NCBI RefSeq assembly: GCF_002775205.1
Contig: NC_036446.1
Span: 79,501 to 143,500, forward strand
Length of the DNA: 64,000 nt
Direction: 5' to 3'
DNA from: Xiphophorus maculatus
Lineage: Eukaryota > Chordata > Actinopteri > Cyprinodontiformes > Poeciliidae
In this document: positions 19,437-64,000 of the stretch, piece by piece
How positions within the stretch are numbered: the first letter of the stretch is position 1
How the letters are laid out: each line of letters starts with the position of its first letter
Notes under the pieces: model-generated
Database searches by the model: none
The model's input: only the letters and a program-made list of their open reading frames with translations
Told to the model about the DNA's origin: nothing
Position numbers and translations under genes: made by a program

Positions 19437-20410
19437 TTGAGTCCTAGAGTTCTCTGGACCGGAAATCTGGACCGGAACTCTAGAACTCTGAACCAGAACT
19501 CTAGAACTCTGGACCAGAACTCTGGATCGAAACTCTAGAACTCTGGACCAGAACTCTGGATCAGAACTCTGGACCAGAACTCTGGACCAGAACTCTAGAA
19601 CTCTGGACCAGAACTCTGGATCGGAACTCTAGAACTCTGGACCAGAACTCTAGAACTCTGGACCAGAACTCTGGATCGGAACTCTAGAACTCTGGACCAG
19701 AACTCTAGAACTCTGGACCAGAACTCTGGATCAGAACTCTGGACCAGAACTCTGGACCAGAACTCTAGAACTCTGGACCAGAACTCTGGATCGGAACTCT
19801 AGAACTCTGGGCCACAACTCTAGAACTCTGGACCAGAACTCTGGATCAGAACTCTAGAACTCTGGATCAGAACTCTAGAACTCTGGACCAGAACTCTGGA
19901 TCGGAACTCTAGAACTCTGGACCAGAACTCTAGAACTCTGGACCAGAACTCTGGATCAGAACTCTGGACCAGAACTCTGGACCAGAACTCTAGAACTCTG
20001 GACCAGAACTCTGGATCGGAACTCTAGAACTCTGGACCAGAACTCTAGAACTCTGGACCAGAACTCTGGACCAGAACTCTAGAACTCTGGACCAGAACTC
20101 TGGATCAGAACTCTGGACCAGAACTCTGGACCAGAACTCTAGAACTCTGGACCAGAACTCTGGATCGGAACTCTAGAACTCTGGACCAGAACTCTAGAAC
20201 TCTGGACCAGAACTCTGGATCAGAACTCTAGAACTCTTCACCAGAACTCTGGAACTCTGGATCAGAACTCTAGAACTCTGGATCAGAACTCTAGAACTCT
20301 TCACCAGAACTCTGGAACTCTGGATCAGAACTCTAGAACTCTGGATCAGAACTCTAGAACTCTTCACCAGAACTCTGGAACTCTGGATCAGAACTCTGGA
20401 CAAGAACTCA
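19437..20410. repeat. AACTCTAGAACTCTGGACCAG-type minisatellite, nearly 1 kb
   Basis: A 21-bp unit (AACTCTAGAACTC-TGGACCAG) alternates with a 13-bp short form (AACTCTGGACCAG) and GGATCGG variants. Together they make higher-order blocks. A TTCACC variant appears at the right end (20,230-20,380). Confidence 0.95.
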
Positions 20411-20625: not shown

Positions 20626-21260
20626 CAAACCAAATTATTACCAAACATTTGAAGCCATTTTCCCCTAAAACAACCCAGATTATCCAGAATCCAGAATCTG
20701 GACCGTCCGGCTAGTTCTGGAGAGCCTCAACCAAATTTTGAATTGAAAACTGACCTTTTGGTTTTGACTTTGCAGTCGGTTTGAGTCCCATCAACTATAT
20801 TTTTGTTGTGCTTGTCAGACCGTTTTTCTTCTTATTATTTGCTTTCAGTCCTCTCAGATCTTCTCAACTTCTATGCACCACAAGTCTAAAACAAACTTTC
20901 TGAAAACTGCAAAACAGCTGAAACCCTGAGTATCTTTAAATCTGACACCAACTGGTTAGAGCTGATTCATGAGAACTGGGATGTCGCTCATTTCAGCTCC
21001 TTCTGTTTTGCTGCTGTAACGTTTTATGTTTTCATAAAGCATCTGACTTCTCTTTCAGCATTTATACCTTGATTGTCTTCATGTCTGGAAACCTTTTTAG
21101 TTTTGTTAATGATCGTAGCATGGACAGCAGATTGTTAAAAAAAACTTGATTTGATTTCAAAATGCATCCATCAGTCAGTCTGTCTGTCTGTGTCAGAAAT
21201 ATACAGACATGTAAAATAATTCCTGTACATTTATGCAGACACATCTAATTATTCAATTTA
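20626..21260. other. Intergenic sequence, nothing recognised
   Basis: No gene, RNA or transposon end that I can support. A short CTGTCTGT run lies near 21,180. Confidence 0.55.
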
Positions 21261-22969
21261 AAAGCTAACAATGAAAGCTAAATGAAAAATAACCATGAAA
21301 TCTAACCGTGAAGTCTAACTATGAAAGCTAATTATGAAAGCTAACTATGAAAGCTAATTATGAAAGCTAACTATGAAAGCTAATTATGAAAGCTAACCAT
21401 GAAGTCTAACTGTGAAAGCTAACTCTGAAAGCTAATTATGAAAGCTAACTATGAAAGCTAACCATGAAGTCTAACTCTGAAAGCTAACTATGAAAGCTAG
21501 TTATGAAAGCTAACTATGAAAGCTAATTATGAAAGCTAACTATGAAAGCTAGTTATGAAAGCTAACTATGAAAGCTAATTATGAAAGCTAACTATGAAAG
21601 CTAGTTATGAAAGCTAACTATGAAAGCTAATTATGAAAGCTAACTATGAAAGCTAATTATGAAAGCTAACTATGAAAGCTAATTATGAAAGCTAACCATG
21701 AAGTCTAACTGTGAAAGCTAACTCTGAAAGCTAATTATGAAAGCTAACCATGAAGTCTAACTCTGAAAGCTAACTCTGAAAGCTAGTTATGAAAGCTAAC
21801 TATGAAAGCTAATTATGAAAGCTAATTATGAAAGCTAACCATGAAGTCTAACTGTGAAAGCTAACTATGAAAGCTAATTATGAAAGCTAACCATGAAGTC
21901 TAACTGTGAAAGCTAACTATGAAAGCTAATTATGAAAGCTAACCATGAAGTCTAACTGTGAAAGCTAATTATGAAAGCTAACCATGAAGTCTAACTGTGA
22001 AAGCTAACTCTGAAAGCTAATTATGAAAGCTAACCATGAAGTCTAACTCTGAAAGCTAACTATGAAAGCTAACCATGAAGTCTAACTGTGAAAGCTAACT
22101 CTGAAAGCTAATTATGAAAGCTAATTATGATAGCTAACCATGAAGTCTAACTGTGAAAGCTAACTATGAAAGCTAATTATGAAAGCTAACCATGAAGTCT
22201 AACTGTGAAAGCTAACTATGAAAGCTAATTATGAAAGCTAACCATGAAGTCTAACTGTGAAAGCTAACTATGAAAGCTAATTATGAAAGCTAACCATGAA
22301 GTCTAACTGTGAAAGCTAACTCTGAAAGCTAATTATGAAAGCTAACCATGAAGTCTAACTGTGAAAGCTAACTCTGAAAGCTAATTATGAAAGCTAACCA
22401 TGAAGTCTAACTCTGAAAGCTAACTATGAAAGCTAACCATGAAGTCTAACTGTGAAAGCTAACTCTGAAAGCTAATTATGAAAGCTAATTATGAAAGCTA
22501 ACCATGAAGTCTAACTGTGAAAGCTAACTATGAAAGCTAATTATGAAAGCTAACCATGAAGTCTAATTGTGAAAGCTAACTATGAAAGCTAATTATGAAA
22601 GCTAACCATGAAGTCTAACTGTGAAAGCTAACTCTGAAAGCTAATTATGAAAGCTAACCATGAAGTCTAACTGTGAAAGCTAACTCTGAAAGCTAATTAT
22701 GAAAGCTAACCATGAAGTCTCACTGTGAAAGCTAACTCTGAAAGCTAATTATGAAAGCTAATTATGAAAGCTAACCATGAAGTCTAACTGTGAAAGCTAA
22801 CTCTGAAAGCTAATTATGAAAGCTAACCATGAAGTCTAACTGTGAAAGCTAACTCTGAAAGCTAATTATGAAAGCTAACCATGAAGTCTCACTGTGAAAG
22901 CTAACTCTGAAAGCTAATTATGAAAGCTAATTATGAAAGCTAACCATGAAGTCTAATTATGAAAGCTAA
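21261..22969. repeat. 13-bp satellite (GAAAGCTAATTAT family), 1.7 kb, with 52-bp higher-order units
   Basis: The base unit is 13 bp, with variants AAAGCTAACTATG, AAAGCTAATTATG, AAAGCTAACCATG, AAGTCTAACTGTG and AAAGCTAACTCTG. In the right two-thirds, four variants in fixed order form a 52-bp repeat. Copies of GCTAATTATG carry the TAATTA core. Confidence 0.97.
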
Positions 22970-22977
22970 CCATAAAA

Positions 22978-27044: not shown

Positions 27045-28045
27045 TCATCCATCCCTCTTCTTCCGTTTATCCGGAGTCGGGTCGCGGGGTCAGCAGCTTC
27101 AGAAGCGAGGCCCAGACTTCCCTCTCCAGCCTCTTGTTCCAGCTCCTATGGGGGAATCTGAGAAACAGCCCAGGAACATAGTCCCTCCAGCGTGTCCTGG
27201 GTTTTCCCCTCCTCCTGGTGGGACCTGAACTCCTCACCAGGGAGGCGTCCAGGAGGCATCCTGACCAGATGCCTGAGCCTTAACTGGCTCCTCTCGATGT
27301 GAAGGAGCAGCGGCTCTAGTCCCTCCCGGATGACTGAGCTTCTCTCTCTAAGGGAGAGCCCAGCCACCCTACGGAGAAAACCCATTTTGGCCGCTTGTAT
27401 CCGCGATCTCGTTCTTTCGGTCATGACCCAAAGCTCATGACCATAGATGAGGGTGGGAACGTAGATCGACCGGTAAATCGAGAGCTTCGCTTTTTGGCTC
27501 AGCTCTCTCTTCACCACGACGGACCGGTACAGCGCCCGCTTAACGGCGGACGCTGCACCAATCCGCCTGTCGATCTCCCGCTCCCTTCTTCCCTCATTCG
27601 TGAACAAGATCCTGAGATACTTGAACTCCTCCACTTGAGGCAGGACACCCCCCTGACCCGGAGAAGGTTGTCTACCCTTTTCCGGCTCAAGACCATCATG
27701 GCCTCGGATTTGGAGGCACTGATCCTCATCCCGGCCGCTTCACACTCGGCTGCGAACCGCTCCAGCGAGAGCTGCAGATCACGACCCGATGAAGCCAGAA
27801 GGACCACATCGTCTGCAAAGAGCAGAGATGAGATCCTAAGGCCACCAAACTGGATCCCCTCAACACCTTGGCTGGCCTAGAGATTCTGTCCATGAAAGTA
27901 ATGAACAGAATCGGTGACAATGGGCAGCCCTGGCGGAGTCCAACTCTCACCGGAAACGAGCCCGACTTACTGCCGGCAATGCGGACCAGACTCTGACATG
28001 CATTGAGGTGAGACCGACCATTTCTAGCCAGAACATCTCAACTTC
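27045..28045 (-). mobile_element. Truncated and internally deleted APE/RT LINE
   Basis: Read on the minus strand, 27,050-28,000 matches the RT and C-terminal part of the LINE at 35,870-38,942. Shared protein segments are VGLRQGCPLSPILFITFMDR, LSLERFAAECEAAGM and LIYGHELWVMTERTRSRIQA. The 3' end is near a short GGATGGATGA tail. At about 28,000-28,045 sequence from the element's 5' part (GGCTAGAAAT, GTCGGTCTCACCTC) joins directly to the RT part. About 1.8 kb in between, most of the endonuclease and early RT, is missing. The frame is also broken. Confidence 0.85.
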
Positions 28046-31835: not shown

Positions 31836-32703
31836 GTTTAGTGTTTTTGTCTCTGTCCTGTCAACCCTCACTCAGACATTCAGTCCAGTTCTGCTTCTAC
31901 TGCAGATCCAGGAGGTTAAGAACATCATGACACACTGTTGCCACATGAAGAGAGACTGCTGCAAACGCAGCAACCTGATGCATTCGACTGGGTTGAAAAC
32001 ATTTAACCAATTGGAAAAATGATCTGAACTTAACTGAAATGTTTAATGATTGAGTTCAGCCTGAACGGACTCTGAGGTGTCGGTAAGGTTGGGTTACATT
32101 AATTCTGCATTTCTGGGTATAAACTGAATGTTTTTTTATTGTGGTGATTTGGTGCGGAGTCGATAAACCGAACTGAATGAATCCCATCTTCATGTGATGC
32201 TGCTGTCATGTTTTGGCCAAAGGGCTCAGAGATCTTCTACATGTGATAAACTGAAAACAAAGGACAAGTAGACTTAGAGTCCAGGACTGTGGTTCTGAAA
32301 AGGCCACCATGATGTCAGCTCTGAACTACTTTCAAATCCAACCACAGAAGGCGGCGGCCATCTTTAGTGCCGCAGACGGAGCGCTGCTGGGCGACGGCTA
32401 CGTTCTTCTTCTGCAGGTCACTTTGGGGTTATGAACATTTTTTATTGAAGGTTATAATGTATAACTGTATATTTGTTTTTATTAAAAATTATGCTTATAT
32501 TAACTTGAATAATTTCTTAATATCTTACTGGTTGAATGTTTCTTTAAGAAGAAATGCTGTAATATCTTCTGTTTGGAGGTAAATATGTTTGATTTTAGCT
32601 TTATTTATGATGACTGATTGGTTTCACATGAACTCAGTGAGAGATGAAGATGAGGGTCTGCAGGAGAAGAAGACATGGCTGCAGGTTTGGTCAGTTTCTG
32701 TGT

Positions 32704-32709
32704 TTTATT
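32704..32709 (-). terminator. Polyadenylation signal of chymotrypsinogen copy 1
   Basis: AATAAA on the minus strand, 41 bp after the stop codon. Confidence 0.8.
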
Positions 32710-32749
32710 GAAGATCAGGCTAGAAGCGGAGGCCGACCGCTGAGCACGC

Positions 32750-34923
32750 TCAGTTGGCAGCGATGGTCTGGTCGACCCAGGCGCGCAGCTCGGTGACGCG
32801 GGCGTAGACAGCCGGAGTGCTGGTGCTGCAGGTGCTGCTGCCCCAGGACACGATGCCCACCAGAGTCCAGGCTCCGCTCTTCTCACAGACCAGAGGACCT
32901 CCAGAGTCACCCTGAGGAAAGAAACCCAGCAGGCTGATGAAAACCGGAGGTCAGACCGGATGAACAGAACCGGGTCAGAACTAAACTCCCACCATGCAGG
33001 AGGAGGCTCCGGCCGCTCCGGCGCAGATCATCAGGTCGGTGATGTTGCTGCCCCAGTAATTGCTGCAGTTAGCATTGGTGAGGAGGGGCAGAGCGGCCTG
33101 CTGCAGCAGAGCGGGGGTGCTGGGGGCTGCAAAACACACAACAGTTACCAGAAAGTTCAAACTCATTAGAAACTATTTTCCAAGTCAGGAATTATGAGAC
33201 TACAGTAAAGATATGATTATTACTCAGGAATAAAAACTACTTGCAGGGTTCTTAATTTCAACCTGGATGATGAATTAAAACATTTTTATAGTGAATGAAG
33301 TGAAACTTTGAACACAAAACAAGGTCTGAAAAATATGACAGGACCCTGTTTTATAAATTATTGTAAAGTTTCTGTTGCTTGCAATCTCTTGATGATTCTC
33401 TCATAATGCTTTGTGAGCGTCAGCAGCTGTTACCGTTGTAGCGGGTCAGACCCCAGCCAGAGGTCACACACATCATGCCTCCAGGGAAGTTATCGGAGGA
33501 CTCAGCCAGGCACACGGGGGAAACCCGCATGTTGAGCTGGGCGGGGCTGGACAGCTTGATCAGGGTGATGTCGTTATTGATGGTGAAGCTGTTGTACTGG
33601 GGGTGTCTGAACACCTGGCGGGAAGTGACACGTTAGGAGTGGCAGGTTAAAGGTCAGAGGATGTGAAGTGAAGGGTCTCACTTACCTGGCCGGGAGAAAT
33701 CACCTGGATGCTCTCTGCGTTGGAGGAGCGGTCGTGCTCTCCGAGGACCACGCGGTCGCTGGTCCTGCAACACACCAACAGTTTGATCTCTTCTTCTTTG
33801 GTAAAGCAGATCTCAGGTGTGTGACGCTTACCTGATAGTGCAGTGAGCAGCCGTCACCACCCAGTTCTCGTTGATGAGAGAGCCTCCGCAGAAGTGGAAG
33901 CCAGTGTAGTCCTGAAACAGAGGTCGGTCCCATTTTAACAGCTGTGCAAGTTGTAAGAACACTGCAGCCTGACAGGTCGGAGGTCAGCTCAGACACGCGG
34001 CGGATAAACTACGAGGAGGCGACGGCCGCACGTCAAGGTCGCCGTTTGACGGCAAAGAGCAGCCGGGTTGATATTTTCCAGTCCTGGAAAAATCAGAGGA
34101 TGGATGCGTTTCTTCTGACAGCAGCATGTTTGCGTGTGTGAGATCTCTTCCAGCCTAATGTCGGACCTGGACCTGCCGATGTGGCCTTGAGGTCGGTGAT
34201 CAGTATGCGACAGGCTGATGCAGAGCACGCCAAGATGCTTGGAAGAATTGCAAAGCAGGGTTATTCCACCAAACACTGATTTCTGACGGTAAACATTAGG
34301 GGCATGCAGTCTAAGAAAGATCAACTTTTATTCTTTGAGGTTGGAAAATGCAACGTTTTTGGCGTCTCCACCATTTTAATATTGGCTTCACATCCTCCAA
34401 AGTTCAGAAATGATCACATCTCCATAAAGTTGTTTAGTTTAACTGATCATCTGCAGGACGGTGAGGTACCAGCAACAATTATCGGTTAGAAAAGATTTCT
34501 ATGTCAGAGATTGTTCCTAAGAAGGAGGCGAGCATCCCTGAAGTTAACAGAATAAAGCATCTTTGTTTGTGGGAGTTTACCTGAAGAGACACCTGCCAGG
34601 GCCAGGAGTGAGGCACAGCCTCCTCACCGTTCACAATGCGGGCGTAACCGGTGATGACGGGAGTGATGGCAGGTGAGCCGCAACCTGGTGACATCATCAT
34701 TACATCATTACCAACAACAATTAGAAACAAACTCCTGACACCTCAGGAGAATGACGTGTTTCCTCTCCCTTCGACCGAAGCCGGACGTCTTTCTAACTTC
34801 GTGCAGCGTAGGCAGTCTGCAGACATCTACACTCGTCTCTGAGCGACTCTGCTGATGAAGGCCGGTCTCACCGTAGGCGGCGCCGACGAAGGCGAGGCAG
34901 GAGAGGATCCACAGGAAAGCCAT
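32750..34923 (-). CDS. ctrb1: Chymotrypsinogen B-like serine protease, copy 1 (Ala226)
   Basis: A secreted pancreatic digestive zymogen cutting after large hydrophobic residues. Seven exons in coding order: 34872-34923, 34581-34684, 33832-33911, 33686-33764, 33434-33614, 32993-33126, 32750-32911. They total 792 nt, giving 263 residues, the usual family length. All introns are GT-AG and phases close. The 18-residue signal peptide ([18 protein letters not shown]) is followed by Cys1 (CGSPAI) and activation site R15-IVNG. The catalytic triad is His57 in TAAHC, Asp102 in NNDITLIKL and Ser195 in GDSGGP. Ser189 (ASSCMGDSGG) gives chymotrypsin rather than trypsin specificity. Residue 226 (precursor 244) in TPAVYARV is Ala, as in chymotrypsin B. 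The gene looks intact; orthology to one mammalian gene is not implied. Confidence 0.95.
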
Positions 34924-34935
34924 GGCTCGATCATG

Positions 34936-35057
34936 TCCACTCCCTTTGGGCCCGCTGCTTTTATACAGCAGTGGAGCGATATGATTGGACGGGACAGCAG
35001 GGACATCTTATCAGAAGACAGTGGGAGTTTGGACAGGTGTGGGTATTTTTCCACCTG
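34936..35057 (-). promoter_or_regulatory. Promoter of chymotrypsinogen copy 1: TATA box and PTF1-like motif
   Basis: On the gene strand TATAAAAG lies at 34959-34966, about 40 bp before the ATG, leaving a very short 5' UTR as usual for pancreatic protease genes. Further up, E-boxes CACCTG (35034-35039 on the minus strand, 35052-35057 on the plus strand) flank a TTTTTCC box (35046-35052). This resembles the E-box plus TC-box site of the acinar factor PTF1. The same sequence is present in copy 2. Confidence 0.65.
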
Positions 35058-35226
35058 AAGAAGCAGGAACACGAAGGTCAGAATGAGACCATAAGGCTGG
35101 AGGTTGAATTAGTATTAAAATCAAACTGTTACCAAAGTGAAGCTGGACGTCACTTCATCACTGAGTTCTGAATAAATACCACCAAATAATTGGAGCTCAA
35201 AGCTCATGTTAAATGATATTGAAGTA

Positions 35227-35736
35227 TCTTCTGTAGGAAGAATGATTCCTTCATAGAAGAACAACTTGTAAATTATTTACAGGTTTGGGTTGGTGCCAGA
35301 TAAAAATAAGTAAAATAATATAGATCAAATGTAACAAGAAACATTCAAACAAAACGTAAGTAAAACATAGCTATGGCAACTACACATACAGAAATCATTA
35401 TTTTCAGGGAAATAAATCAACCATGAAAGGTTTTGGTTCGCTGGTGTGTTTAACTCCAGCAGAGTCAGTCACCCCAGAGGGGGGCTTAGGGTTGGGGCTA
35501 GGGGGAACTGTCAAACTGCAGGGCAAATCCTTTTAAGGGATAAATAAAATAAGTTTCTAAAAGGAACAATGAACCCGTTCTAGTAGATGCAGAGTAGAGC
35601 CTTTAACTGCTCCATGTTGTACAGAAACTATTGCAAAGGTGAATGATAAGGAAGGTTCTAAGATTACAATTATAAACCTAAGAATTTTAACAAAATGTAT
35701 TGAAAGTAGTTTTAGTTAGGGTTAGGGGTTAGGGTA
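35227..35736. other. Intergenic between duplication block and minisatellite
   Basis: No gene. A short TTAGGGTTAGGGGTTAGGG segment lies at about 35,713-35,732, next to the minisatellite. Confidence 0.6.
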
Positions 35737-35869
35737 GACAATAGACACGACAATAGACGAAGTCAATAGACACAACTACAGACGAAGACAATAAACACTA
35801 CAGACGAAGACAATAGTCATGACAATAGACACAACAATAGACGAAGACAATAGACACGATAATAGACAC
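35737..35869. repeat. Minisatellite of ACAATAGAC / GAAGACAATAGACAC units, left part
   Basis: Irregular units of ACAATAGACACAACAATAG, ACGAAGACAATAG and AATAGACAC. The same array continues at 38,943-39,255 on the other side of the LINE, so it was split by that insertion. Confidence 0.9.
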
Positions 35870-38800
35870 CGGTGGTGGGCCACCGGTAATAGACACGGGT
35901 GGTGGGCCCCTCCCATGGGCCCACCACCCGTGGGAGGGGCCAAAGGGGTCGGGTGCAGTGTGGGATGGGTGGCAGCAGAGGGAGGGGACCCTGGCGGTCT
36001 GATCCTCGGTTGCAGAAACTGGCTCTTGGGACGTGGAATGTCACCTCTCTGGTGGGGAAGGAGCCGGAGCTAGTGCGTGAGGTCGAGAGGTTCCGGCTAG
36101 AAATAGTCGGTCTCACCTCGACGCACGGCTCTGGTTCTGGAACCAGTCTCCTTGAGAGGGGCTGGACATACTTCCACTCTGGAGTTGCCCAAGGTGAGAG
36201 GCGTCGGGCAGGAGTGGGCATACTTGTTGCTCCCCATCTCGGCGCCTGTACGTTGGGGTTTACCCCGGTGAACGAGAGGGTAGCATCCCTCCGCCTACGG
36301 GTGGGGGGACGGGTTCTGACTGTCGTTTGTGCTTACGGGCCGAACGACAGTTCAGATTACCCACCCTTTTTGGAGTCCTTAGAGGGGGTGCTGGAGAGTG
36401 CTCCTCCTGGGGACTCCCTTGTTCTGCTGGGGGACTTCAACGCTCACGTGGGCAATGACAGTGAGACCTGGAGGAGCGTGGTTGGGAGGAACGGCCCGCC
36501 CGACCTGAACTCGAGCGGTGTTCTGTTGCTGGACTTCTGTGCTCGCCATGGATTGTCCATAACGAACACCATGTTCAAGCATAAGGGTGTCCATATGTGC
36601 ACTTGGCACCAGGACACCCTAGGCCGCAGTTCGATGATCGACTTTGTCATCGTTTCATCGGATCTGCGGCCGTATGTCTTGGACACTCGGGTGAAGAGAG
36701 GTGCGGAGCTGTCCACTGACCACTACCTGGTGGTGAGTTGGCTCCGGTGGTGGGGGCGAAAGCCGGTCAGACCTGGCAGGCCCAAACGTGTTGTGAGGGT
36801 CTGCTGGGAACGTCTGGCGGAATCCCCTGTGAGATGGAGCTTTAACTCCCATCTCCGGCAAAACTTCGAACACGTCCCGGGGGAGGTGGGGGACATGGAG
36901 TCTGAGTGGACCGTGTTCCGTGCCTCCATTGTCGAGGCGGCCGATCGGAGCTGTGTCCGCAAGGTTGTCGGTGCCTGTCGCGGTGGCAACCCTCGAACCC
37001 GCTGGTGGACACCTTCGGTGAGGGATGCCGTCAGGCTGAAGAAGGAGTCCTATCGGGCCTTTTTGGCCTGTGGGACTCCGGAAGCAGCTGATGGGTACCG
37101 GCGGGCGAAGCGGCATGCGGCTCGGGCGGTTGCTGAGGCAAAAACTCGGGCGTGGGAGGAGTTTGGAGAGGCCATGGAGAAAGACTTCCGTACGGCTTCG
37201 AGGCGATTCTGGTCCACCATCCGGCGTCTCGGGGGGGGAAGCGGTGCAGCACCAACACTGTTTATAGTGGGGATGGTGTGCTGCTGACCTCTACTCGGGA
37301 CGTTGTGGGCCGGTGGGCAGAGTACTTTGAAGACCTCCTCAATCCCACCAACATGCCTTCCACTGAGGAAGCGGAGCCTGGGGACTCTGGGTTGGGCTCT
37401 CCAATCTCTGGGGGCGAGGTCGCTGAGGTGGTTAAAAAGCTCCTCGGTGGCAAGGCCCCGGGGGTGGATGAGATCTGCCCGGAGTTCCTTAAGGCTCTGG
37501 ATGTTGTAGGGTTGTGTTGGTTGACGCGACTCTGCAATGTCGCATGGACATCGGGGGCAGTTCCCCTGGATTGGCAGACTGGGGTGGTGGTCCCCCTGTT
37601 CAAAAAGGGGGACCGGAGGGTGTGCTCCAATTATAGAGGGGTCACACTCTTAAGCCTCCCTGGCAAGGTCTATTCAGGGGTCCTGGAGAGGAGGGTCCGT
37701 CGGATAGTCGAACCTCGGATTCAGGAAGAGCAGTGTGGTTTTCGTCCTGGTCGTGGAACACTGGACCAGCTCTACACCCTCAGCAGGGTCCTGGAGGGTT
37801 CTGGGAGTTCGCCCAACCAGTCTACATGTGTTTTGTGGACTTGGAGAAGGCGTTCGACCGTGTCCCTCGGGGAGCCCTGTGGGGGGTTCTCCGGGAGTAT
37901 GGGGTACCGGGCCCTTTGATACGGGCTGTCAGGTCCCTGTATGACCGGTGTCAGAGTCTGGTCCGCACTGCCGGCAGTAAGTCGGGCTCGTTTCCGGTGA
38001 GAGTTGGACTCCGCCAGGGCTGCCCTTTGTCACCGATTCTGTTCATTACTTTTATGGACAGAATCTCTAGGCCAGCCAAGGTGTTGAGGGGATCCGATTT
38101 GGTGGCCTTAGGATCTCATCTCTGCTTTTTGCAGACGATGTGGTCCTTCTGGCTTCATCAGATTGTGATCTGCAGCTCTCGCTGGAGCGGTTCGCAGCCG
38201 AGTGTGAAGCGGCCGGGATGGGGATCAGTGCCTCCAAATCCGAGGCCATGGTCTTGAGCCGGAAAAGGGTAGAGTGCCTTCTCCGGGTCAGGGGGGGTGT
38301 CCTGCCCCAAGTGGAGGAGTTTAAGTATCTCGGGATCTTGTTCACGAATGGGGGAAGAAGGGAGCGGGAGATCGACAGGCGGATTGGCGCAGCGTCTGCT
38401 GTCAAGCGGGCGCTGTACCGGTCCGTCGTGGTGAAGAGAGAGCTGAGCCAAAAAGCGAAGCTCTCGATTTACCGGTCGATCTACGTTCCCACCCTCATCT
38501 ATGGTCATGAGCTTTGGGTCATGACCGAAAGAACGAGATCGCGGATACAAGCGGCCGAAATGGGTTTTCTCCGTAGGGTGGCTGGGCTCTCCCTTAGAGA
38601 TAGGGTGAGAAGCTCAGTCATCCGGGAGGAACTCAGAGTAGAGCCGCTGCTCCTTCACATCGAGAGGAGCCAGTTGAGGTGGCTCGGGCATCTGGTCAGG
38701 ATGCCTCCTGGACGCCTCCCTGGTGAGGAGTTCCGGGCACGTCCCACCGGGAGGAGGCCCCGGGGAAGACCCAGGACACGCTGGAGGGACTATGTCTCTC

Positions 38801-38942
38801 GGCTGGCCTGGGAACGCCTCGGGATTCCCCCGGAGGAGCTAGAAGTAGTGGCTGGGGAGAGGGAAGTCTGGGCCTCCCTTCTGAAGCTGCTACCCCCGCG
38901 ACCCGACCTCGGATAAGCGGAAGAAGATGGATGGATGGATGG
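35870..38942 (+). mobile_element. Near full-length APE endonuclease/RT LINE (RTE/Rex3-like), frameshifted
   Basis: The first part (about 36,010-37,250) encodes an APE-type endonuclease: [40 protein letters not shown], and [13 protein letters not shown] then STDHYLV. The RT follows with LLGGKAPGVDEI, VVPLFKKGDRR, QCGFRPGRGT, VYMCFVDLEKAFD, LRQGCPLSPILF and the catalytic LLFADDVVLLA (FADD at 38128-38139). The C-terminal part ends at PPRPDLG and a stop at 38916. At least three frameshifts break it: near a G-run at about 37,230, near 37,795, and at about 38,090-38,120. The 3' end is a short ATGG repeat. AATAGACAC occurs just before (35861-35869) and just after (38943-38951), the likely target duplication. 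The clade name is from memory of family features. Confidence 0.9.
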
Positions 38943-39255
38943 AATAGACACAACAACAATAGACACAACTACAGACGAAGACAATAAACACAATAGACGA
39001 AGACAATAGTCACGACAGTAGACACAACAATAGACGAAGACAATAGACACGATAATAGACACAACAACAATAGACACAACTACAGACGAAGACAATAAAC
39101 ACAATAGACGAAGACAATAGTCACGACAGTAGACACAACAATAGACACGACAATAGACGAAGACAATAGACACGACAATAGACACAACAATACACAAAGA
39201 CAATAGACACAACTACAGACGAAGACAATAAACACAATAGACGAAGACAATAGGG
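38943..39255. repeat. Minisatellite of ACAATAGAC / GAAGACAATAGACAC units, right part
   Basis: Continuation of the array at 35,737-35,869; it ends in TAGGGTTAGGGGTTAG at about 39,252-39,267. Open frames with VSIVVVSI-type repeats here are array artefacts. Confidence 0.9.
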
Positions 39256-39639
39256 TTAGGGGTTAGTTCTTTTAGATAAAGAAGTTTTGTAACATGAACC
39301 TTAAATCAATAGGTTGCTGTTTCAGAATTTCCCATTTCAATCATACGCCCAATCCTATTGGGTGGTATTCATTATACCACCTTAAGTTGTCAACAACTTA
39401 AAGTGACCAATTTCAATGGAAAATAAATCCTGTTTGTATCGGAGGATAAAATAAGATAACATTTAGAATAGGCCATGATGAAAGGCCAAGTCTGCTAAAG
39501 ACCACAATTTCTTGATTATCATTAATAATAATCCCCCCTTTTATGTAATTCCGGAGTATTTATAACCAATCAAGATTTCCTAGCATATGGATTTATAACA
39601 TTTGTATATGCTGGGATCTGAGGTTTTTGGCTCTTTGTT

Positions 39640-40436
39640 GGAAATTTTCTGTTGCCTGCTGCTTCTCTCTTCGTCCACTAGATGGCACCAAGGGACTGCA
39701 ACACCTGGAGACTGACAGGTGTCAGCGCACCTGGGATCCATCGCCTGATCATCCAGGGGGACATGAGGAGCAAGAAGCTGCCAGCACTTTATTAGTTAAT
39801 TTTACCATCACATGTAGGAATAAAAGGAAATGAGTTGGCAGATAAATATGCAAAACAAGCTACAAAAAGTTGTTATATTGATATATTGGCACCATTCAGT
39901 AAAGATTAAATCAAATCTATTATTAAACAAAAGGTTAAGGAAAGATGGCAGAAACAGTGGGAAGAAGAAAGAACTGGCAGGTGGTGTAATGAGGAGAACA
40001 GGATGAAATGGAAAGGAGGAAACCAAAATGTCCAGATTACGTTTTGGTCATACAGGGTTAAATATTACTTTATTTAAAATGGGAAAACATCCAACAGGAA
40101 AATGTGATTTTTGTTTTCAAGAAGAGACAGTAAAACATGTTTTTTGTTCTGTTCTAAATATTCTGTTGAGAGACTTGAACTAGTATGTAGATTACAAGAA
40201 AATAAATTAAAGCTAAATATACAAAATATTTTGGACAAAAATTCTACTTCTGAATATTTTTGTTCTTTAATGAAACAAGAAAACAAAATTGATAGAAAGG
40301 ATATAAGTTTTATACATTTATTTTTGTGGGAGAATATATATGTAGCATCATGATCCACACTCCATTCCAGTAGATGGCGGTAATGCACATCAGTAAGTTG
40401 CTTGCCAACCGCTATAAAAAAAGAAGAAGAAGACTT
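39640..40436 (+). mobile_element. 3' end of an I-like (Nimb-type) LINE with RNase H remnant
   Basis: At about 39,790-39,860 the plus strand encodes LPSHVGIKGNELADKYAKQA, the C-terminal motif of the RNase H domain of I-clade LINEs. It continues with KQKVKERWQKQWEEERTGRW and a FCS-type Cys pattern near 40,110, broken by stops. The end has CCAGTAGATGGCGGTAATGC, a stem-forming TTGCCAACCGC and an AAGAAGAAG tail at 40,425-40,435. It is strongly 5'-truncated; the left border is approximate. Confidence 0.7.
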
Positions 40437-43400
40437 TGACGCCTGAGTGTTTGTCAGTTTTGGTACTCTGCACCCCTTTGAGTTTGCTCTCTAAGTTTCC
40501 CAAGATTACATCAAGTTTTATCTTTCTGTTGCCTCCTCCTCAGGTGTTTCCTCCTGATGCCTCAGACTATTGTCCACCTGCGTCTGAGTCCCTGGGTTTC
40601 TGGATTCCTCCCTCGTGACGCCGTGGATTGTTTACCCACTGGTTGCCTGAGTCCCTTTTCACCTTTACAGAAGAATCATTGACACTTCCTGGTTTTCTCT
40701 GCTGGCAGTTGGATCGCTCCTCGTTCCTCCTCACCTGAACTTACCTGTCCTCCTTCCACCGCAGCCTCTACCATCTGAACCTCACACAGGAACCCGGCTC
40801 ACTTTCAATGACCTCTACAAAGAGACCATACTCCCAAAGACCACAGTACTACTTAGTTAATTTGGGCCTGCTGGATTTGCTGTGTGATATCTACATACCT
40901 GAAAGAGTTCTTCTGGATTGTTCATGCTCAGCTGGCCGTTTTGAAGCATCTCCTCGCCTGCAGGTTGGAGCCTGCCCTGCCCTCATCAGCGATCAGAGCT
41001 AAAGGACGACCTGTCAGATTACAAGTAGTGTCTGCAGCGTCAGATCACTTCCAGGACTCCTCAATCCCCATCACCTCTCCCGGGCGGAAATTCCCATCCA
41101 GCTAGTAAGATCTTTCCACAAGTCCCTGTTCCAGTTTGTTCATTATACTCACTTTCCCGATCTGTCTCGATCGTGTCGGTCCTTCCAAGCCTGGCCATCA
41201 ACAGATCCATTCATTGCATATTTAACATTGTTTTCCTTAGAAATAAATCCTTTAAACTATCTGGTTTCCTGAGAGTATCCCTGCATGTGGGTCCAGAATA
41301 TTACCAACATGATACCTTTTGTTGGGTGCTGGAGTCTGGTCTTGTGGGGAGCTTTCTTCTTCTTCCACCAGGAGGAGCCATGAGGTTGCAGTCTGTTGGA
41401 GGGTGGCCCCTGCACACCTGTGCATAATCGGCACCATCACCACCAGGATAAGAGGAGCGGGCGGCCGGTTCTCCAGCGCTTGAGTGTTAACCTCTAACGG
41501 TACTCTGAGCCCCCTGAGCTTAATCCTCTGTGTTTTCATCCGTGCTCCTAGCAACCTGAATTTATCTTTAAATTTCTACTTGCAGGAATACGTCTCGTGG
41601 TGCCGTGGAGAAGTACCCTTTGTGAACCCACGTTCAAATCCGAGACCCAAGAACCTCAGCTGAAGAAATTCCTGGAATACAATCTAAACTGGCCGAGACC
41701 CGCTCCTCACCCTACAGACTACCCTCTGACTACCTGCCCGCCCTCCAACGGCTCTCCCATCTGCGACCTCAGGGGATCCTCCAGCCATCGGACCCCTGAT
41801 CGGACTCCTCCTCCTCCTGTCAGCTTCCCAGGCTCCAGTACCCCAACATCAGTTTTCCCCCAGCGGACGCACCTCACCCACTAAACTCGTTCCTGAACTA
41901 GTTTGTTTCAGTTCAATATTTCACTTACCTTTCCTTTCCCCCTGCCTTCAGCGCGAAGACGATTCTTATCCATTGGCCCCAAGACATTTCACATACCACA
42001 CCAGATATTTATGGTTTAAAAGAAAATAGACTTTATTTATCTGAGTCATTTTCCATCTCCTATTTGTGTCTCTGCATGTGGGTCAAACATGTAGCTTCAA
42101 ACATGACACCTTTCACACATTTTATTTCTTTCACAAGAAGCTACAGGATGAAGATCCTGCTTCAGTCTGACCAAAACTGGCTGAAGCTATTTACTGACCA
42201 ATGAACTGCTTCATAAAAAAACACACACAACTTCACTTTCAGTGATTTAAGGTGGTTTTTCCACGTCTGTAGATCTTGAATTTTAAAATAATCCATCTGA
42301 ATTACATCTTTTTAAGATCACCCAGAAGCATTGATTCATTTACTTATTTTACAACAAAGAATAAACTAAAACGTAATTGATGAAATAAAATGAACCACAA
42401 AAACAAACCCAAAAATCCAGAATTATGACATTTTCTGCTGTAAGACTAGTAATGTTGGAACAAGAGGAGACCCAGAAAATCTGGAAACCACTGTTCAAAA
42501 ATATTTGGTACTAAATGTTGAGAAGTGAGACATTTTCTACCTGCTGCTCGTCGTTCTCTCGTCTCCTCGGGTCCATTAATGTTGTGTGTAAAAGTGAAAC
42601 CATAAAGACAGCAGTCACTGTTCAACTTCACAATCAACCAGAATTTATTCAAACAATCAAGTGCATAAAGTCACACCAACATCTCATCATGGTCACCAGA
42701 AACCAAAGCCACAAAGAAGAAATTAATTACCTTAGAAAAATACAAAGAAGGCTCCTTCAGAGACACTGAGTGGCGTTCAGACAGATCCAGTGATCTGATT
42801 GGCTGGTTTAGCTCCATTCCTTTTATATCCAGGTGTTTCTACTGTCTGATGGTCCAACATAGTTTAGACTCAACCAGCCGTAATGTTGCTGTTAGCAGCC
42901 AGAGACCAGGCAGGTTTTACCGAGGCCAAGATGGATCCATCCTGCTGATCCTCCTGATCTTTACCAACAATAGATGTTTATTTCATACAGAAACATTTTA
43001 TTCAAGAAAGTGGAACCAAAGTTTATCAGCTATCTGTGTTTTTCAGTTCAAACTGGTTCACACTGGTTCCTGAGCCCACAGAGCTCTGCTGACCTCTGAC
43101 CTCTGACCCAGGGCGTCAAACAGCAGATTTGATTATAAAAATTAACATGTTTCATATAATATCTTCAAACTCTTATAAAACAGTCATAAGCAGTCTGTTT
43201 TTGTTTTGGTATTTTGGTGTTGTTTTCAATACCAAAACATCTTTTACACTCAATATTATCTGATTAGTTTTAGACTTCCTCAGTTATAATGAACTTAAAC
43301 AATTTCCAGATTAATATATGATTTATACACTCTTAAGAATGTGATCCAATATAAAAACTACTGATTAGACTAATTTTAATCAAACCTAATCTTAACCCTA

Positions 43401-45444
43401 CCCATTATATCTAAGAAAAATGTTCTACTGATTAAGTTATATATTGATGAAATCATGACTCTAAATCTAACCTAAATTGATGCCGATTCAAAATCAGTCT
43501 ATTTCAACAAAGTTGAACATCATTAAAACTAGCATAATTAAACTAATATTTCCAACATATGTCAAAAAAATAATCCATGGACCAAAGTTGACGTAATACC
43601 CAAGTTTATTGTAATTGGTGTGTTTTGTTTCTGGCACAGATTTCTGAATTCTTGAATTTCTGGATGCCATCATGTACCAAGTTCACTATGGGAGAGTGTG
43701 TTTGACTCCAACTGCTATAGTTTGTTATATATATACATCTTAAGATGTGAAGAACCTTGTACAACCAGATTAAACTTATTTCGTCTCCCACTTGTTGCTC
43801 ATTACTATTTAAAGGCTCAAACACCTGATTAGCATCTGTTTCTCAAGCATTTTACATATAGATTTGTAATTTATTAAACCTAGATTGACAGAAGGTTTCT
43901 TAAATAAAGATTTAATTCCAATCTTACACTGTAGTAAGGGTAAATTAGTTCTATCTAAAATGGGGGCAGTATTTAAAGGAAACACTTCTTTAAGCCCTTA
44001 ACCTGCATCAGAACGCCCCCATGCCGTTTCTCCATTGTTTTACTCAGGGTGAGATTTAAGGGTTTTCTTAAACCCTTAAATCTCACATGTTGGGTTTAGG
44101 TTTTCCTTCTTTAGTGGATCCAGTTCAGTTATTTCTTAAGTCCTTCTAGCTTTAGTGTTTCTAGTTTTCTCATTTTGTCACTTTAGGTTTAGTTAGTCTT
44201 TTTGTCCTGCCTTCTTTGGTGATTCTAGTTAAATTATTTCTATTTTCAGATCTTCTACTTACCCTAGCTCTACGTCCCCTAGTTCTTCTTATTGTTAGAT
44301 CAGCCTTCTTCCTGTTTAGGTTTATTTATGTTTTTCCCTCATGTCTTTTCGTCTTCTAGTTTATCAGGGTTTCTTTAGTATTCGAGGTATTTTCAGCTCC
44401 CTGCTGTTTCCTCTGTTTTTCTCCTCAGCCAACGACTCACACCTGGAACCAGTTATCTCATCTCGTTAGGCCCGTTGTCCCAGTATTTAAGCTCCTCTGT
44501 TCCAGTCACAACTCGCTGGTTCGTCTCGTCACCCTTATCGTTACTACCCATGTCTACCTGTTGGTCCAGGAAGCTTTATTTTTTGGTTAATTTTCTTCAT
44601 TAAACATCCATTTATTTCTACGACTGCTGCCTGCTGTGTTTGGGTCCTCTGCCACATCGTGATTCCCCCTTTTGATTGACATTGCATTTTACCAATAATG
44701 TTATGAAATGACTTTTTCTGAGCCAATAAAATCCAGAGAGCGACTTGAGTTCGTTTTGATATGCCTGTATTCTTTCTGGAATATTTCTGACTGGTCAACT
44801 CGGAGACTAAATCTAAAGCCACCGATGTGTAGCCAACGCGTGGCCTGTCATAAGGATATCAGGCATTTTGGGGTTTGTGTTGACATGAATCCACCAGCTG
44901 CATGCGTAACCACGCGTAATGTGTGCGTCAGGCTCTGTGCGCCCTCGTTCGTAACGGTGTTTACAGGACTTTTTCCTCACCAACCACGATGTCAGAACGG
45001 GTCAAACCTGGATGTGTTTCTTCATCAAAGTTTCACAACTCCCAGGAGTGGATGATTATGGCCGTAAGAGTTCTGACAAGTTTTGGATCTGAGAATACCG
45101 GAAACTTTTAGTCGTCTGCTGCTACAGTCAGAGCGACGGGGTACAGCGGGAACGGGGAACGGGGGGGAGGGGCCTAGTGTACCGTTAAAAGCTGAGTTTA
45201 GGGCATTAGAGGCTACATCTGGGCTGACACCCTCTGTGTCCCCCCATTATATCGACCTGAGTATTTAACACTCAGATAGAAAAAAAATCTGAGGTCTGAT
45301 TCAAACATTGCAAGTAAAGACTGGTGGACGGGAAAACGACAAACAAATGAAAATTTGGTGTTTTGCATAGAGGGAAAGGAAAACTAAGGGTCAGAAGTTT
45401 CAACGAGCTGCTCTGTTTAGGGGAAAACGCGCCTTGTGTTGGTC
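40437..45444. other. Intergenic 5 kb between the chymotrypsinogen blocks
   Basis: I recognise no gene. Open frames at 40,808-41,105 and 41,597-41,884 are proline/serine-rich without a family. Near 44,630 and again near 48,755 the phrase TTTGGGTCCT follows T-rich leader-like sequence, which may mark LTR-retrotransposon remnants; paired LTRs were not found. Confidence 0.45.
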
Positions 45445-45547
45445 AAGATGAGGGTCTGCAGGAGAAGAAGACATGGCTGCAGGTTTGGTCAGTTTCTGTG
45501 TTTTATTGAAGATCAGGCTAGAAGCGGAGGCCGACCGCTGAGCACGC

Positions 45548-47721
45548 TCAGTTGGCAGCGATGGTCTGGTCGACCCAGGCGCGCAGCTCGGTGACGCGGG
45601 CGTAGACGCCAGGGGAGCTGGTGCTGCAGGTGCTGCTGCCCCAGGACACGATGCCCACCAGAGTCCAGGCTCCGCTCTTCTCACAGACCAGAGGACCTCC
45701 AGAGTCACCCTGAGGAAAGAAACCCAGCAGGCTGATGAAAACCGGAGGTCAGACCGGATGAACAGAACCGGGTCAGAACTAAACTCCCACCATGCAGGAG
45801 GAGGCTCCGGCCGCTCCGGCGCAGATCATCAGGTCGGTGATGTTGCTGCCCCAGTAATTGCTGCAGTTAGCATTGGTGAGGAGGGGCAGAGCGGCCTGCT
45901 GCAGCAGAGCGGGGGTGCTGGGGGCTGCAAAACACACAACAGTTACCAGAAAGTTCAAACTCATTAGAAACTATTTTCCAAGTCAGGAATTATGAGACTA
46001 CAGTAAAGATATGATTATTACTCAGGAATAAAAACTACTTGCAGGGTTCTTAATTTCAACCTGGATGATGAATTAAAACATTTTTATAGTGAATGAAGTG
46101 AAACTTTGAACACAAAACAAGGTCTGAAAAATATGACAGGACCCTGTTTTATAAATTATTGTAAAGTTTCTGTTGCTTGCAATCTCTTGATGATTCTCTC
46201 ATAATGCTTTGTGAGCGTCAGCAGCTGTTACCGTTGTAGCGGGTCAGACCCCAGCCAGAGGTCACACACATCATGCCTCCAGGGAAGTTATCGGAGGACT
46301 CAGCCAGGCACACGGGGGAAACCCGCATGTTGAGCTGGGCGGGGCTGGACAGCTTGATCAGGGTGATGTCGTTATTGATGGTGAAGCTGTTGTACTGGGG
46401 GTGTCTGAACACCTGGCGGGAAGTGACACGTTAGGAGTGGCAGGTTAAAGGTCAGAGGATGTGAAGTGAAGGGTCTCACTTACCTGGCCGGGAGAAATCA
46501 CCTGGATGCTCTCTGCGTTGGAGGAGCGGTCGTGCTCTCCGAGGACCACGCGGTCGCTGGTCCTGCAACACACCAACAGTTTGATCTCTTCTTCTTTGGT
46601 AAAGCAGATCTCAGGTGTGTGACGCTTACCTGATAGTGCAGTGAGCAGCCGTCACCACCCAGTTCTCGTTGATGAGAGAGCCTCCGCAGAAGTGGAAGCC
46701 AGTGTAGTCCTGAAACAGAGGTCGGTCCCATTTTAACAGCTGTGCAAGTTGTAAGAACACTGCAGCCTGACAGGTCGGAGGTCAGCTCAGACACGCGGCG
46801 GATAAACTACGAGGAGGCGACGGCCGCACGTCAAGGTCGCCGTTTGACGGCAAAGAGCAGCCGGGTTGATATTTTCCAGTCCTGGAAAAATCAGAGGATG
46901 GATGCGTTTCTTCTGACAGCAGCATGTTTGCGTGTGTGAGATCTCTTCCAGCCTAATGTCGGACCTGGACCTGCCGATGTGGCCTTGAGGTCGGTGATCA
47001 GTATGCGACAGGCTGATGCAGAGCACGCCAAGATGCTTGGAAGAATTGCAAAGCAGGGTTATTCCACCAAACACTGATTTCTGACGGTAAACATTAGGGG
47101 CATGCAGTCTAAGAAAGATCAACTTTTATTCTTTGAGGTTGGAAAATGCAACGTTTTTGGCGTCTCCACCATTTTAATATTGGCTTCACATCCTCCAAAG
47201 TTCAGAAATGATCACATCTCCATAAAGTTGTTTAGTTTAACTGATCATCTGCAGGACGGTGAGGTACCAGCAACAATTATCGGTTAGAAAAGATTTCTAT
47301 GTCAGAGATTGTTCCTAAGAAGGAGGCGAGCATCCCTGAAGTTAACAGAATAAAGCATCTTTGTTTGTGGGAGTTTACCTGAAGAGACACCTGCCAGGGC
47401 CAGGAGTGAGGCACAGCCTCCTCACCGTTCACAATGCGGGCGTAACCGGTGATGACGGGAGTGATGGCAGGTGAGCCGCAACCTGGTGACATCATCATTA
47501 CATCATTACCAACAACAATTAGAAACAAACTCCTGACACCTCAGGAGAATGACGTGTTTCCTCTCCCTTCGACCGAAGCCGGACGTCTTTCTAACTTCGT
47601 GCAGCGTAGGCAGTCTGCAGACGTCTACGCTCGTCTCTGAGCGACTCTGCTGATGAAGGCCGGTCTCACCGTAGGCGGCGCCGACGAAGGCGAGGCAGGA
47701 GAGGATCCACAGGAAAGCCAT
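45548..47721 (-). CDS. ctrb1: Chymotrypsinogen-like serine protease, copy 2 (Gly226)
   Basis: Exons in coding order: 47670-47721, 47379-47482, 46630-46709, 46484-46562, 46232-46412, 45791-45924, 45548-45709, giving 263 residues. Signal peptide, activation site, catalytic His57/Asp102/Ser195 and Ser189 are the same as in copy 1. The only protein differences I find are Thr224 to Ser and Ala226 to Gly (SPGVYARV instead of TPAVYARV). Gly226 is the chymotrypsin A-type residue lining the S1 pocket. The TATA box (about 47,757-47,764) and polyA signal (45,502-45,507) are also kept, so both copies look functional. The symbol is by family only; the copies need separate names. Confidence 0.95.
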
Positions 47722-47733
47722 GGCTCGATCATG

Positions 47734-47855
47734 TCCACTCCCTTTGGGCCCGCTGCTTTTATACAGCAGTGGAGCGATATGATTGGACGGGACAGCAGGG
47801 ACATCTTATCAGAAGACAGTGGGAGTTTGGACAGGTGTGGGTATTTTTCCACCTG
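47734..47855 (-). promoter_or_regulatory. Promoter of chymotrypsinogen copy 2: TATA box and PTF1-like motif
   Basis: Same layout as copy 1: TATAAAAG about 40 bp upstream of the ATG, and an E-box/TC-box group 110-135 bp upstream. No base difference from copy 1 was seen in this segment. Confidence 0.65.
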
Positions 47856-48024
47856 AAGAAGCAGGAACACGAAGGTCAGAATGAGACCATAAGGCTGGAA
47901 GTTGAATTAGTATTAAAATCAAACTGTTACCAAAGTGAAGCTGGACGTCACTTCATCACTGAGTTCTGAATAAATACCACCAAATAATTGGAGCTCAAAG
48001 CTCATGTTAAGTGATATTGAAGTA

Positions 48025-57640: not shown

Positions 57641-58998
57641 GTAATTTCAAAGTGATTTTGAGTCAATAGGTGACATGAATTGGAAGCTATTGAAGAAAAA
57701 TACTAAATTTTGACTAAAAAATAGTTTAAAAGCATGAATTAGCACTTTTTGTGTCAGTGGGCTCTTTGCTCCTCAGCTTCCGCGTTCAGGGAAAAGCGGC
57801 TCAATCGTTTCCGATCTATTGAAAACGGCTCTTTCCACTGGGTGTTAGCAGGGCTTGTCCAAGGTAACAATTAATGATGAACATCGATCTGAAGCCCCGA
57901 CAATAAGCTGGAGAAAGGTTTTAAGATGTTCGCCTCGTTATACAGATACGAAGGTGAGTTTTACTTTCTTTAAACTTTGTGGCTAACATTAGCTTTAGCT
58001 TATGCTAGACATTTTTCTTATAAAAATGTGCTATTTAAGTGTCTAAACATTTTTCATCCATTCTAACGGACAATATTTTACCTTGTGTTCAAGTATATTA
58101 CGTGGTTTATTGTCGTTAGTGTCAGAGACCAAGTAACGGGGATTTTACGGTTCAGGCTTTTTGCTTCTGAGGAACAGCAAGCCCATAGCTTAACAGTAGA
58201 GCAGCTCTGGTGTCGGAGTTCTAGTTCAGCTGACTGTTCAGGTTCAGAGTTGTTGCTTTTAGAAAAATATGGCTGTGTTCCTTAAAGTCTCCATGTTATT
58301 TCACTTTATTAGTTTAGCATGTTTCTAGTGAAGCAGGACGGTGTTTCCAGCAGTGTGTACAGGCGGATCAGTAGCTCGGCTGTCTGGCTCTGGTCTGCTC
58401 TCTGGTTCCCATAAACTCTTTCAGGCTGAATACAGAAGTGAGTCCATGGAAATAACACAGGAGGCTCCTTTACCTTCTGCTTTAGGCTGAACAAGTTGAT
58501 CCGGAGTGAAGTGAAGGCTGTAAACTTTGCTGTGCTGCGTTAGCTTTAACTGGTAGCCACGAATATTTACAAGCCACCGTCTTCTTAATTCAGGACCGCT
58601 TGGAAATCCATGAAAACTTAAAAGCCCTTTATATTAGGAAGACAATAATGTTCATAGTATTGTTTTATCTGCGTCTGAAATAAGACTTTGTCTTTTCTAG
58701 CTGTCATGGTAACTCAAAGCGGAAAAGAGAGCCCCATTTGCGCATGCGGTTGTGACGTCAGCGCAGCAGGTGCAAAGAGCCCGTTGGTCACAAGGCAAGG
58801 CATTTATTAACATTTGTTTGACAGGAGTGTTTGGTTCGGAAATTTGTTGACGGTCCCTAAGTGAACCTCCGAGCGCTTGGGGAGGGAGCGGTGGAGAACG
58901 GCTAGCCGACATTAGCGCTCATAAATCGGATCAACCTTTAGCTAAACGCCGCTTACACCGTGGAGCGCCAATATCCAACTTGAAACTAACTTCACTGC
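57641..58998. repeat. Right arm of the 4.5-kb inverted repeat (interrupted)
   Basis: 57,641-57,758 plus 58,783-58,998 together form the reverse complement of 54,538-54,870. The interruption at 57,759-58,782 is copy 2 of the 1-kb transposon. Confidence 0.92.
57759..58782 (-). mobile_element. 1.02-kb DNA transposon with 2-bp target duplication and THAP-like remnant (copy 2)
   Basis: Same element as 8285-9316 in reverse orientation, bounded by GGGCTCTTTGC and GCAAAGAGCCC. GT flanks both sides. The uninterrupted target (GTGTCAGTTGGTCAC on the reverse strand) is preserved in the left inverted arm near 54,745-54,765, which fixes the ends. The THAP-like segment (FHGFPSGPELRRRW, then HSKVYSLHF) lies on the minus strand at about 58,480-58,615. 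Confidence 0.85.
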
Positions 58999-63400: not shown

Positions 63401-63739
63401 GTGTAAGCAAAAGTATTAAAAGTTTTGAGAACAAAAGACATGAAATCCTGTTTCAGACTGAAACTGTGTGCTCTTGGATTATGGCAGGAAAATCCCCCCA
63501 TACATTTGTTCCGGAAGAGCCCACAGAACCAGAAGGACTAGTACCGGCTTTGTTCTGGACTCGGACCTGCAGTTTTACTCTGAAAGCCTCAGACCGGAAG
63601 CAGATCTCTGCGGTTCTGTTAAGTGGACGCGCTTCCAGCTGTTCGCTGAGCTTGGACTTTGCTGCCGGACGTGTCGGACCGAACCATGGACCCGCTCTGC
63701 GCTCGGCTCTGACCTCCAGCCGGCAGCCGGAGCTCCAGC

Positions 63740-64000
63740 ATGGTGCCGCCGGGAAACGAGTCGTACAGCTGGGCTGAGACTAACCGCACCGCGGGGGAGC
63801 CCGGGCCGGAGGTGGTGATCGTGCCGCTGGTGTTCGGACTGATCTTCGTGGTGGGGCTTCTCGGGAACTCCCTGGTGATGCTGGTGATCGGCAGGGTGAA
63901 ACCCAACGGAGGCGCGCGCCCGCTCAGCCCCACCAACATCTTCATCGTGAACCTGAGCGTGGCGGACCTCCTCTTCCTCCTCTTCTGCGTCCCGCTCCAC
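63740..64000 (+). CDS. Galanin-receptor-like class A GPCR, N-terminal part (runs off window)
   Basis: Encodes a seven-transmembrane peptide receptor; 87 codons are visible from the ATG at 63,740 with no stop. The extracellular N-terminus has two N-glycosylation sequons (N6-E-S, N15-R-T). TM1 is IVPLVFGLIFVVGLLGNSLV with the conserved GN (Asn1.50). After a short basic loop, TM2 begins TNIFIVNLSVADLLFLLFCV with the conserved LSVAD (Asp2.50). The VPLVFGLIF..GNSLV and (T)TN-FI-NLS-ADL--LLFC-P pattern fits galanin receptors best. Related allatostatin/kisspeptin-type receptors cannot be excluded from TM1-TM2 alone, and the galr subtype cannot be told. Several other ATGs lie upstream out of frame; this one gives a family-typical N-terminus. 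Confidence 0.8.
   Translation, partial: MVPPGNESYSWAETNRTAGEPGPEVVIVPLVFGLIFVVGLLGNSLVMLVIGRVKPNGGARPLSPTNIFIVNLSVADLLFLLFCVPLH

Follow-up and report, generated by a model that had tools for sequence, protein, structure and literature searches.

A tandem pair of chymotrypsinogen genes in Xiphophorus maculatus differs mainly in a nine-nucleotide island at the A/B-type specificity switch

The window analysed here is a stretch of 64,000 nucleotides from Xiphophorus maculatus (NCBI RefSeq assembly GCF_002775205.1, contig NC_036446.1; C4:79501-143500). It contains two complete chymotrypsinogen genes on the minus strand, which were compared with each other and with the rest of the one assembly analysed (704,300,149 bases, 101 contigs). 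Both were rebuilt from the sequence using GT/AG splice sites, and each has seven exons and encodes 263 amino acids. The coding sequence (CDS) of copy A lies at 32750-34923 (-), with exons at 34872-34923, 34581-34684, 33832-33911, 33686-33764, 33434-33614, 32993-33126 and 32750-32911, including the stop codon. That of copy B lies at 45548-47721 (-), with exons at 47670-47721, 47379-47482, 46630-46709, 46484-46562, 46232-46412, 45791-45924 and 45548-45709, again including the stop codon. The outer coordinates given for the pair in a preliminary description, 32750 and 47721, are exact (CDS 34923-32750 and 47721-45548). A TATA box, TATAAAAG, is found 42 nt 5' of the start codon at 34958-34965 (-) in copy A and is identical in copy B at 47756-47763. 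An AATAAA polyadenylation signal was read from the sequence at 32704-32709 (-) in copy A and is identical in copy B at 45502-45507.

Each gene occupies a block of 2580 bp that comprises a complete transcription unit. Self-BLAST and alignment of the blocks with each other placed block A, which encodes a predicted B-type (Ala226) chymotrypsinogen, at 32647-35226 (-) and block B, which encodes a predicted A-type (Gly226) chymotrypsinogen, at 45445-48024 (-). The blocks have equal orientation and a start-to-start distance of 12,798 bp, and they differ by nine substitutions with no difference in length. The proximal promoter is identical in the two copies over 178 bp, and both retain the whole promoter, the introns and the polyadenylation signal. 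Retroposition as the origin of the second copy was ruled out because the introns are common to both. When genome DNA was searched with a 739-nt query spanning exons 2-7, only blocks A and B matched at 97-100% identity, while 9 of 21 matches were other pieces of at most 108 nt with 73-87% identity; these counts are lower bounds. The genome shows two ctrb-type genes and one CTRL-like gene. Protein and DNA searches for further ctrb remnants in the window, with the blocks masked, and in three flanking stretches gave only chance-level matches (best E 2.4 and 0.058). One of the three stretches (L058) falls within the window and hence adds no coverage.

Near identity of the blocks would be expected if two alleles of one gene had been set out as two loci by the assembly, and the preliminary description named such a misassembly as a finding that would overturn it. 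This explanation is very improbable. False haplotype duplications bring their flanks with them, but in this case the stretches of about 3 kb that flank blocks A and B showed no similarity above chance and the block ends are abrupt. The block stands at two places on one contig, separated by a 10.2-kb spacer that has its own retroelement, and other contigs yielded no further copy in the exon 2-7 search.

The proteins encoded by copies A and B are identical at 261 of 263 residues and differ only by Thr242Ser and Ala244Gly (precursor numbering). Because alignment with bovine chymotrypsinogen A (1acb_E) is gap-free over 245 residues (query 19-263 = 1-245), precursor positions 242 and 244 correspond to chymotrypsinogen residues 224 and 226. 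The rebuilt 263-residue products thus bear out the earlier statement that the proteins differ at just these two positions. The alignment keeps the catalytic residues His57, Asp102 and Ser195 in register with 1acb_E, and likewise Ser189, ten cysteines and Arg15-Ile16, the activation site. The copy B product matched the Pfam family PF00089 (Trypsin) over residues 34-256 with E 3.5e-72; copy A differs from the scanned product at two residues.

Residue 226 is Ala in copy A and Gly in copy B. It is Gly in bovine chymotrypsin A and Ala in the chymotrypsin B chain 1kdq, and residues 224-226 of these solved structures read Thr-Pro-Gly and Thr-Pro-Ala, respectively. In a published text, position 244 (226) is occupied by Gly in bovine chymotrypsin A as well as human CTRB1, and by Ala in human CTRB2, bovine chymotrypsin B and mouse CTRB1; Gly226 makes the pocket wider and favours Trp, and CTRB2 does better with Phe, Tyr and Leu (PMC11937528). 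The same text agrees with the earlier view of residue 226 as the A/B-type specificity switch. Judged by its sequence, copy A is a B-type chymotrypsinogen and copy B is A-type. Copy A should have the slightly narrower predicted S1 pocket, as does chymotrypsin B, and copy B the wider predicted pocket that takes Trp better, as does chymotrypsin A. We infer these pocket specificities, as well as pancreatic expression of both copies.

Human CTRB1/CTRB2 and bovine chymotrypsin A/B likewise form very similar pairs with Gly or Ala at 226 (precursor 244) and differing pocket width, as far as the accessible text describes them (PMC11937528). According to the same text the human genes lie in opposing orientation, are 98% identical and also differ at residue 218 (Asp/Arg) (PMC11937528), whereas the present genes point the same way and their products differ at no residues other than 224 and 226. 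In the open-licence literature on fish chymotrypsins, residue 226, chymotrypsin gene conversion and CTRB2, no published report of this pair was found. Human CTRB1 has Ser at 224 (Ser-Ser-Pro-Gly) and CTRB2 has Thr (Thr-Thr-Pro-Ala), which would equal the linked residue pairs of copies B and A. No mention of such motif strings, of the type Ser-Ser-Pro-Gly or Thr-Thr-Pro-Ala, was found in the open-licence literature. The present genes are a real pair of A-type and B-type chymotrypsinogens, of a kind already known, and an unusually clean instance of it. They offer a natural near-isogenic comparison of the two types. With 261 identical residues out of 263 and a proximal promoter identical over 178 bp, any difference in how the copies are used would arise either at residues 224 and 226 or through distant control.

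The nine substitutions are not spread evenly over the blocks. Five of them fall inside 9 nt covering codons 224-226, at 32810-32818 (-) in copy A, which reads ACT CCG GCT (Thr-Pro-Ala), and at 45608-45616 (-) in copy B, which reads TCC CCT GGC (Ser-Pro-Gly); five of the nine bases thus differ. Of these five, two are nonsynonymous (Thr/Ser and Ala/Gly); the other three fall on fourfold-degenerate third positions. All three fourfold sites in the island differ, compared with none of 144 in the remaining CDS (Fisher p 1.9e-6, for a window chosen post hoc). When nine differences were placed randomly in 2580 bp, none of 200,000 trials put five inside 9 nt. The first base of the island is the nonsynonymous one of codon 224, and its last lies one base past the nonsynonymous one of codon 226. 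Identity around it is complete for 2006 bp on the 5' side, reaching to intron 1, and for 163 bp on the 3' side.

The remaining differences occupy 4 of 2571 sites, all within the 5' 402 (p ~6e-4 for that end and 1.2e-3 for either end, both post hoc). Two are in intron 1, at 34825 and 34831 (-) in copy A and at the partner positions 47623 and 47629 in copy B, where copy B has CpG and copy A the transition product. The other two are upstream, outside the identical proximal promoter, at 35102 and 35213 (-) in copy A with partners at 47900 and 48011.

The preliminary description proposed a very recent duplication that had diverged almost only at residue 226. This is not supported as stated, given three silent fourfold differences in the 9-nt patch and 0/144 outside it. 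Because the silent differences are concentrated in this way, the patch does not represent two fresh selected mutations on a clean copy, and a very recent duplication followed by two point mutations does not explain so densely changed a patch. Either the patch is older than the identity that surrounds it or it was brought in by a single event. It resembles older divergence, retained or imported, in genes that are young or homogenised everywhere else.

We tentatively favour, at somewhat less than even chances, a history in which interlocus gene conversion homogenised the pair but spared the switch at residue 226. The A/B difference would predate the present identity of copies A and B. Interlocus gene conversion would then have homogenised the rest of the pair, selection would have removed conversions that carried the 226 switch, and the 9-nt island would remain, with silent differences surviving inside it as well. 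That selection took part and that the island is older are both presumed in this history, and selection may likewise have retained the A/B pair as such. The crowding of the four other differences at the 5' end may also speak for it. A model of converting duplicates predicts a peak of divergence at a selected site, as the source shows for the red/green opsins in the sections available (PMC3924837). In exon 5 of the primate red/green opsins, adjacent duplicates are likewise kept alike by conversion except near two close functional residues, to judge from those sections (PMC3924837). They describe the opsin peak for an exon and back its age with ortholog comparisons (PMC3924837), whereas the present island is 9 nt long and comes from one assembly. 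GOT1p1 and GOT1p2 of the copepod Tigriopus californicus also keep islands of divergence in the face of conversion, according to the part of the report at hand; several populations were compared there, in contrast to the single assembly used here (PMC3728101).

An old ctrb pair is plausible because a table that covers two pricklebacks lists ctrb1 as well as ctrb2 for them (PMC10657299, in the part available) and the present genome has two ctrb-type genes and a CTRL-like gene. In that part, ctrb1, ctrb2 and ctrl are all tabulated for the two species, as here there are two ctrb-type genes and a CTRL-like one; the data given are copy numbers, not residue 226 or level of identity (PMC10657299). A scan of viral contigs for relatives returned 0 and no vertebrate gene. 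The scan of genome contigs also gave no vertebrate gene, and the best 80 of 145 loci were bacterial, with at most 53% identity.

Other protease pairs in this genome look like conversion mosaics and may serve as a precedent. In the C16 pair (C16:248500-254500 versus C16:273000-279500), 473 bp around exons 6-7 contain one mismatch, while three other aligned pieces are 75-86% identical. Of the 3503 aligned columns of the C20 pair, 50 differ, all of them among the first 1961; the last 1542 show no difference. As to their layout, the C16 genes are serine proteases about 25 kb apart, and their conversion-like tract lies at 4370-4842 of C16:248500-254500 and at 4778-5250 of C16:273000-279500. The C20 genes are tandem copies (L063, C20:6652500-6656000; L064, C20:6659400-6662900), with a third copy of identical active-site motif about 6.9 kb further on.

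Conversion with protection of the switch was simulated with two protected sites, mutation and conversion, using mean tracts of 50, 100 and 300 bp at two background levels each, with 60 runs per setting. With protection, a difference at every one of the three inner silent sites arose in 0-15% of runs. Without protection, in the one setting run, differences at 3/3 inner sites appeared in 0/60 runs.

Several points weigh against conversion that spared the switch. The exact pattern, with 3/3 inner differences and none within ~160 nt outside, appeared in only 0-3% of the protected runs, and protection typically left fewer inner or more outer differences than are seen. Protection therefore beats no protection but predicts the sharpness of the island poorly, and a single import event fits this sharpness better. 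The abrupt block ends, which have no diverged homologous fringe, are equally expected from a young 2.58-kb duplication. No donor was found in searches of the genome with 20-mers of each patch and with the exon 2-7 query. The windows around the island were picked after the data had been seen and the counts are small, so the figures are descriptive. Finally, the evidence comes from a single assembly.

The single event invoked above would have laid down the patch after a young duplication, or a recent whole-gene conversion, of the 2.58-kb unit, and selection would not be needed. It could have been a micro-conversion, with a paralogue or an allele outside the assembly as donor, or a complex multi-base mutation. 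Only 4/2571 differences outside the island and the clean block ends fit such a history, as does the gapped alignment of the patch, which reduces it to two substitutions, a one-base insertion and a one-base deletion. However, 20-mers of each patch, searched with at most two mismatches, matched only the patch itself, and the exon 2-7 query found no third place in the genome above 87% identity (a lower bound). The best local template is no better than chance: within its own block, each patch has a longest match of 7 nt, the same as for shuffled patches (60 shuffles each, means 7.0 and 7.4), and local template switching is not supported. A random change would also need to strike the A/B switch and give both natural residue types. 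This explanation is rather unlikely by itself, yet because the simulation predicts sharpness so poorly it remains a serious competitor, and conversion sparing the switch is held below even chances.

Two further observations concern the source of the patch. The CTRL-like paralogue (C3:14013846-14015380) has Thr-Pro-Ala and CCG in common with it, but was rejected as a direct donor, as it departs from the patch at two of nine bases and also in the codons that follow (ACC CCG GCA GTG TAT). An inverted match of 11 nt to the copy A patch, which may be due to chance, occurs at another place in the window.

Dense clusters of substitutions were also sought in control protease pairs as 9-nt windows with at least five substitutions. 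The C16 and C14 pairs had none in the main alignment, and the C20 pair had one, in a homopolymer run. The C3 pair, which is 93% identical, had several, in its diverged first part. With only four control pairs of such mixed character, no rate of these clusters can be derived.

Old silent differences within an otherwise young duplicate would also be explained if old Thr-Pro-Ala and Ser-Pro-Gly alleles had segregated at one ancestral locus and a recent duplication had fixed both as a permanent heterozygote. An old balanced polymorphism should normally leave a footprint longer than 9 nt, of a size set by local recombination, but there are 0 differences within 163 nt 3' or 2006 nt 5' of the island. 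Capture of a standing polymorphism is accordingly improbable.

We wondered whether the A/B split is an ancient selected island of three codons, Ser-Pro-Gly versus Thr-Pro-Ala, kept in vertebrate chymotrypsinogen pairs, those of fish and mammals alike, through continual homogenisation elsewhere. This extension is unlikely, if marginally less so than capture of a polymorphism; were it true, the fish pair would show the island in nearly pure form. If related fishes keep the split at both loci, the pair would illustrate very sharply how selection can preserve a specificity switch in the face of gene conversion, and the long-standing question why vertebrates retain both chymotrypsin types would become directly testable. 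If they do not, it would be an ordinary young duplicate with an odd patch of mutation.

Several other features lie in the window. The retroelement between the copies comprises non-long terminal repeat (non-LTR) remains at 35893-38910 (+), with an endonuclease at 35893-37281 (Pfam PF14529, E 1.4e-9) and a reverse transcriptase end at 38071-38910 (PF00078, E 1.5e-7). Its end is present as inverted copies of 91% identity at 27046-27998 and 37949-38937, the second being part of the element itself. A second inverted repeat of ~1 kb, at 8285-9317 and 57758-58782, is 96% identical and is probably a DNA transposon, because its first copy has a THAP domain. Self-comparison revealed long tandem arrays at 21255-22977, 19452-20409, 12608-13152 and 15689-16021. 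At the end of the window, 63713-64000 holds the start of a rhodopsin-type receptor gene that continues beyond it (7tm_1, E 9.1e-7, narrowly short of the Pfam cut-off).

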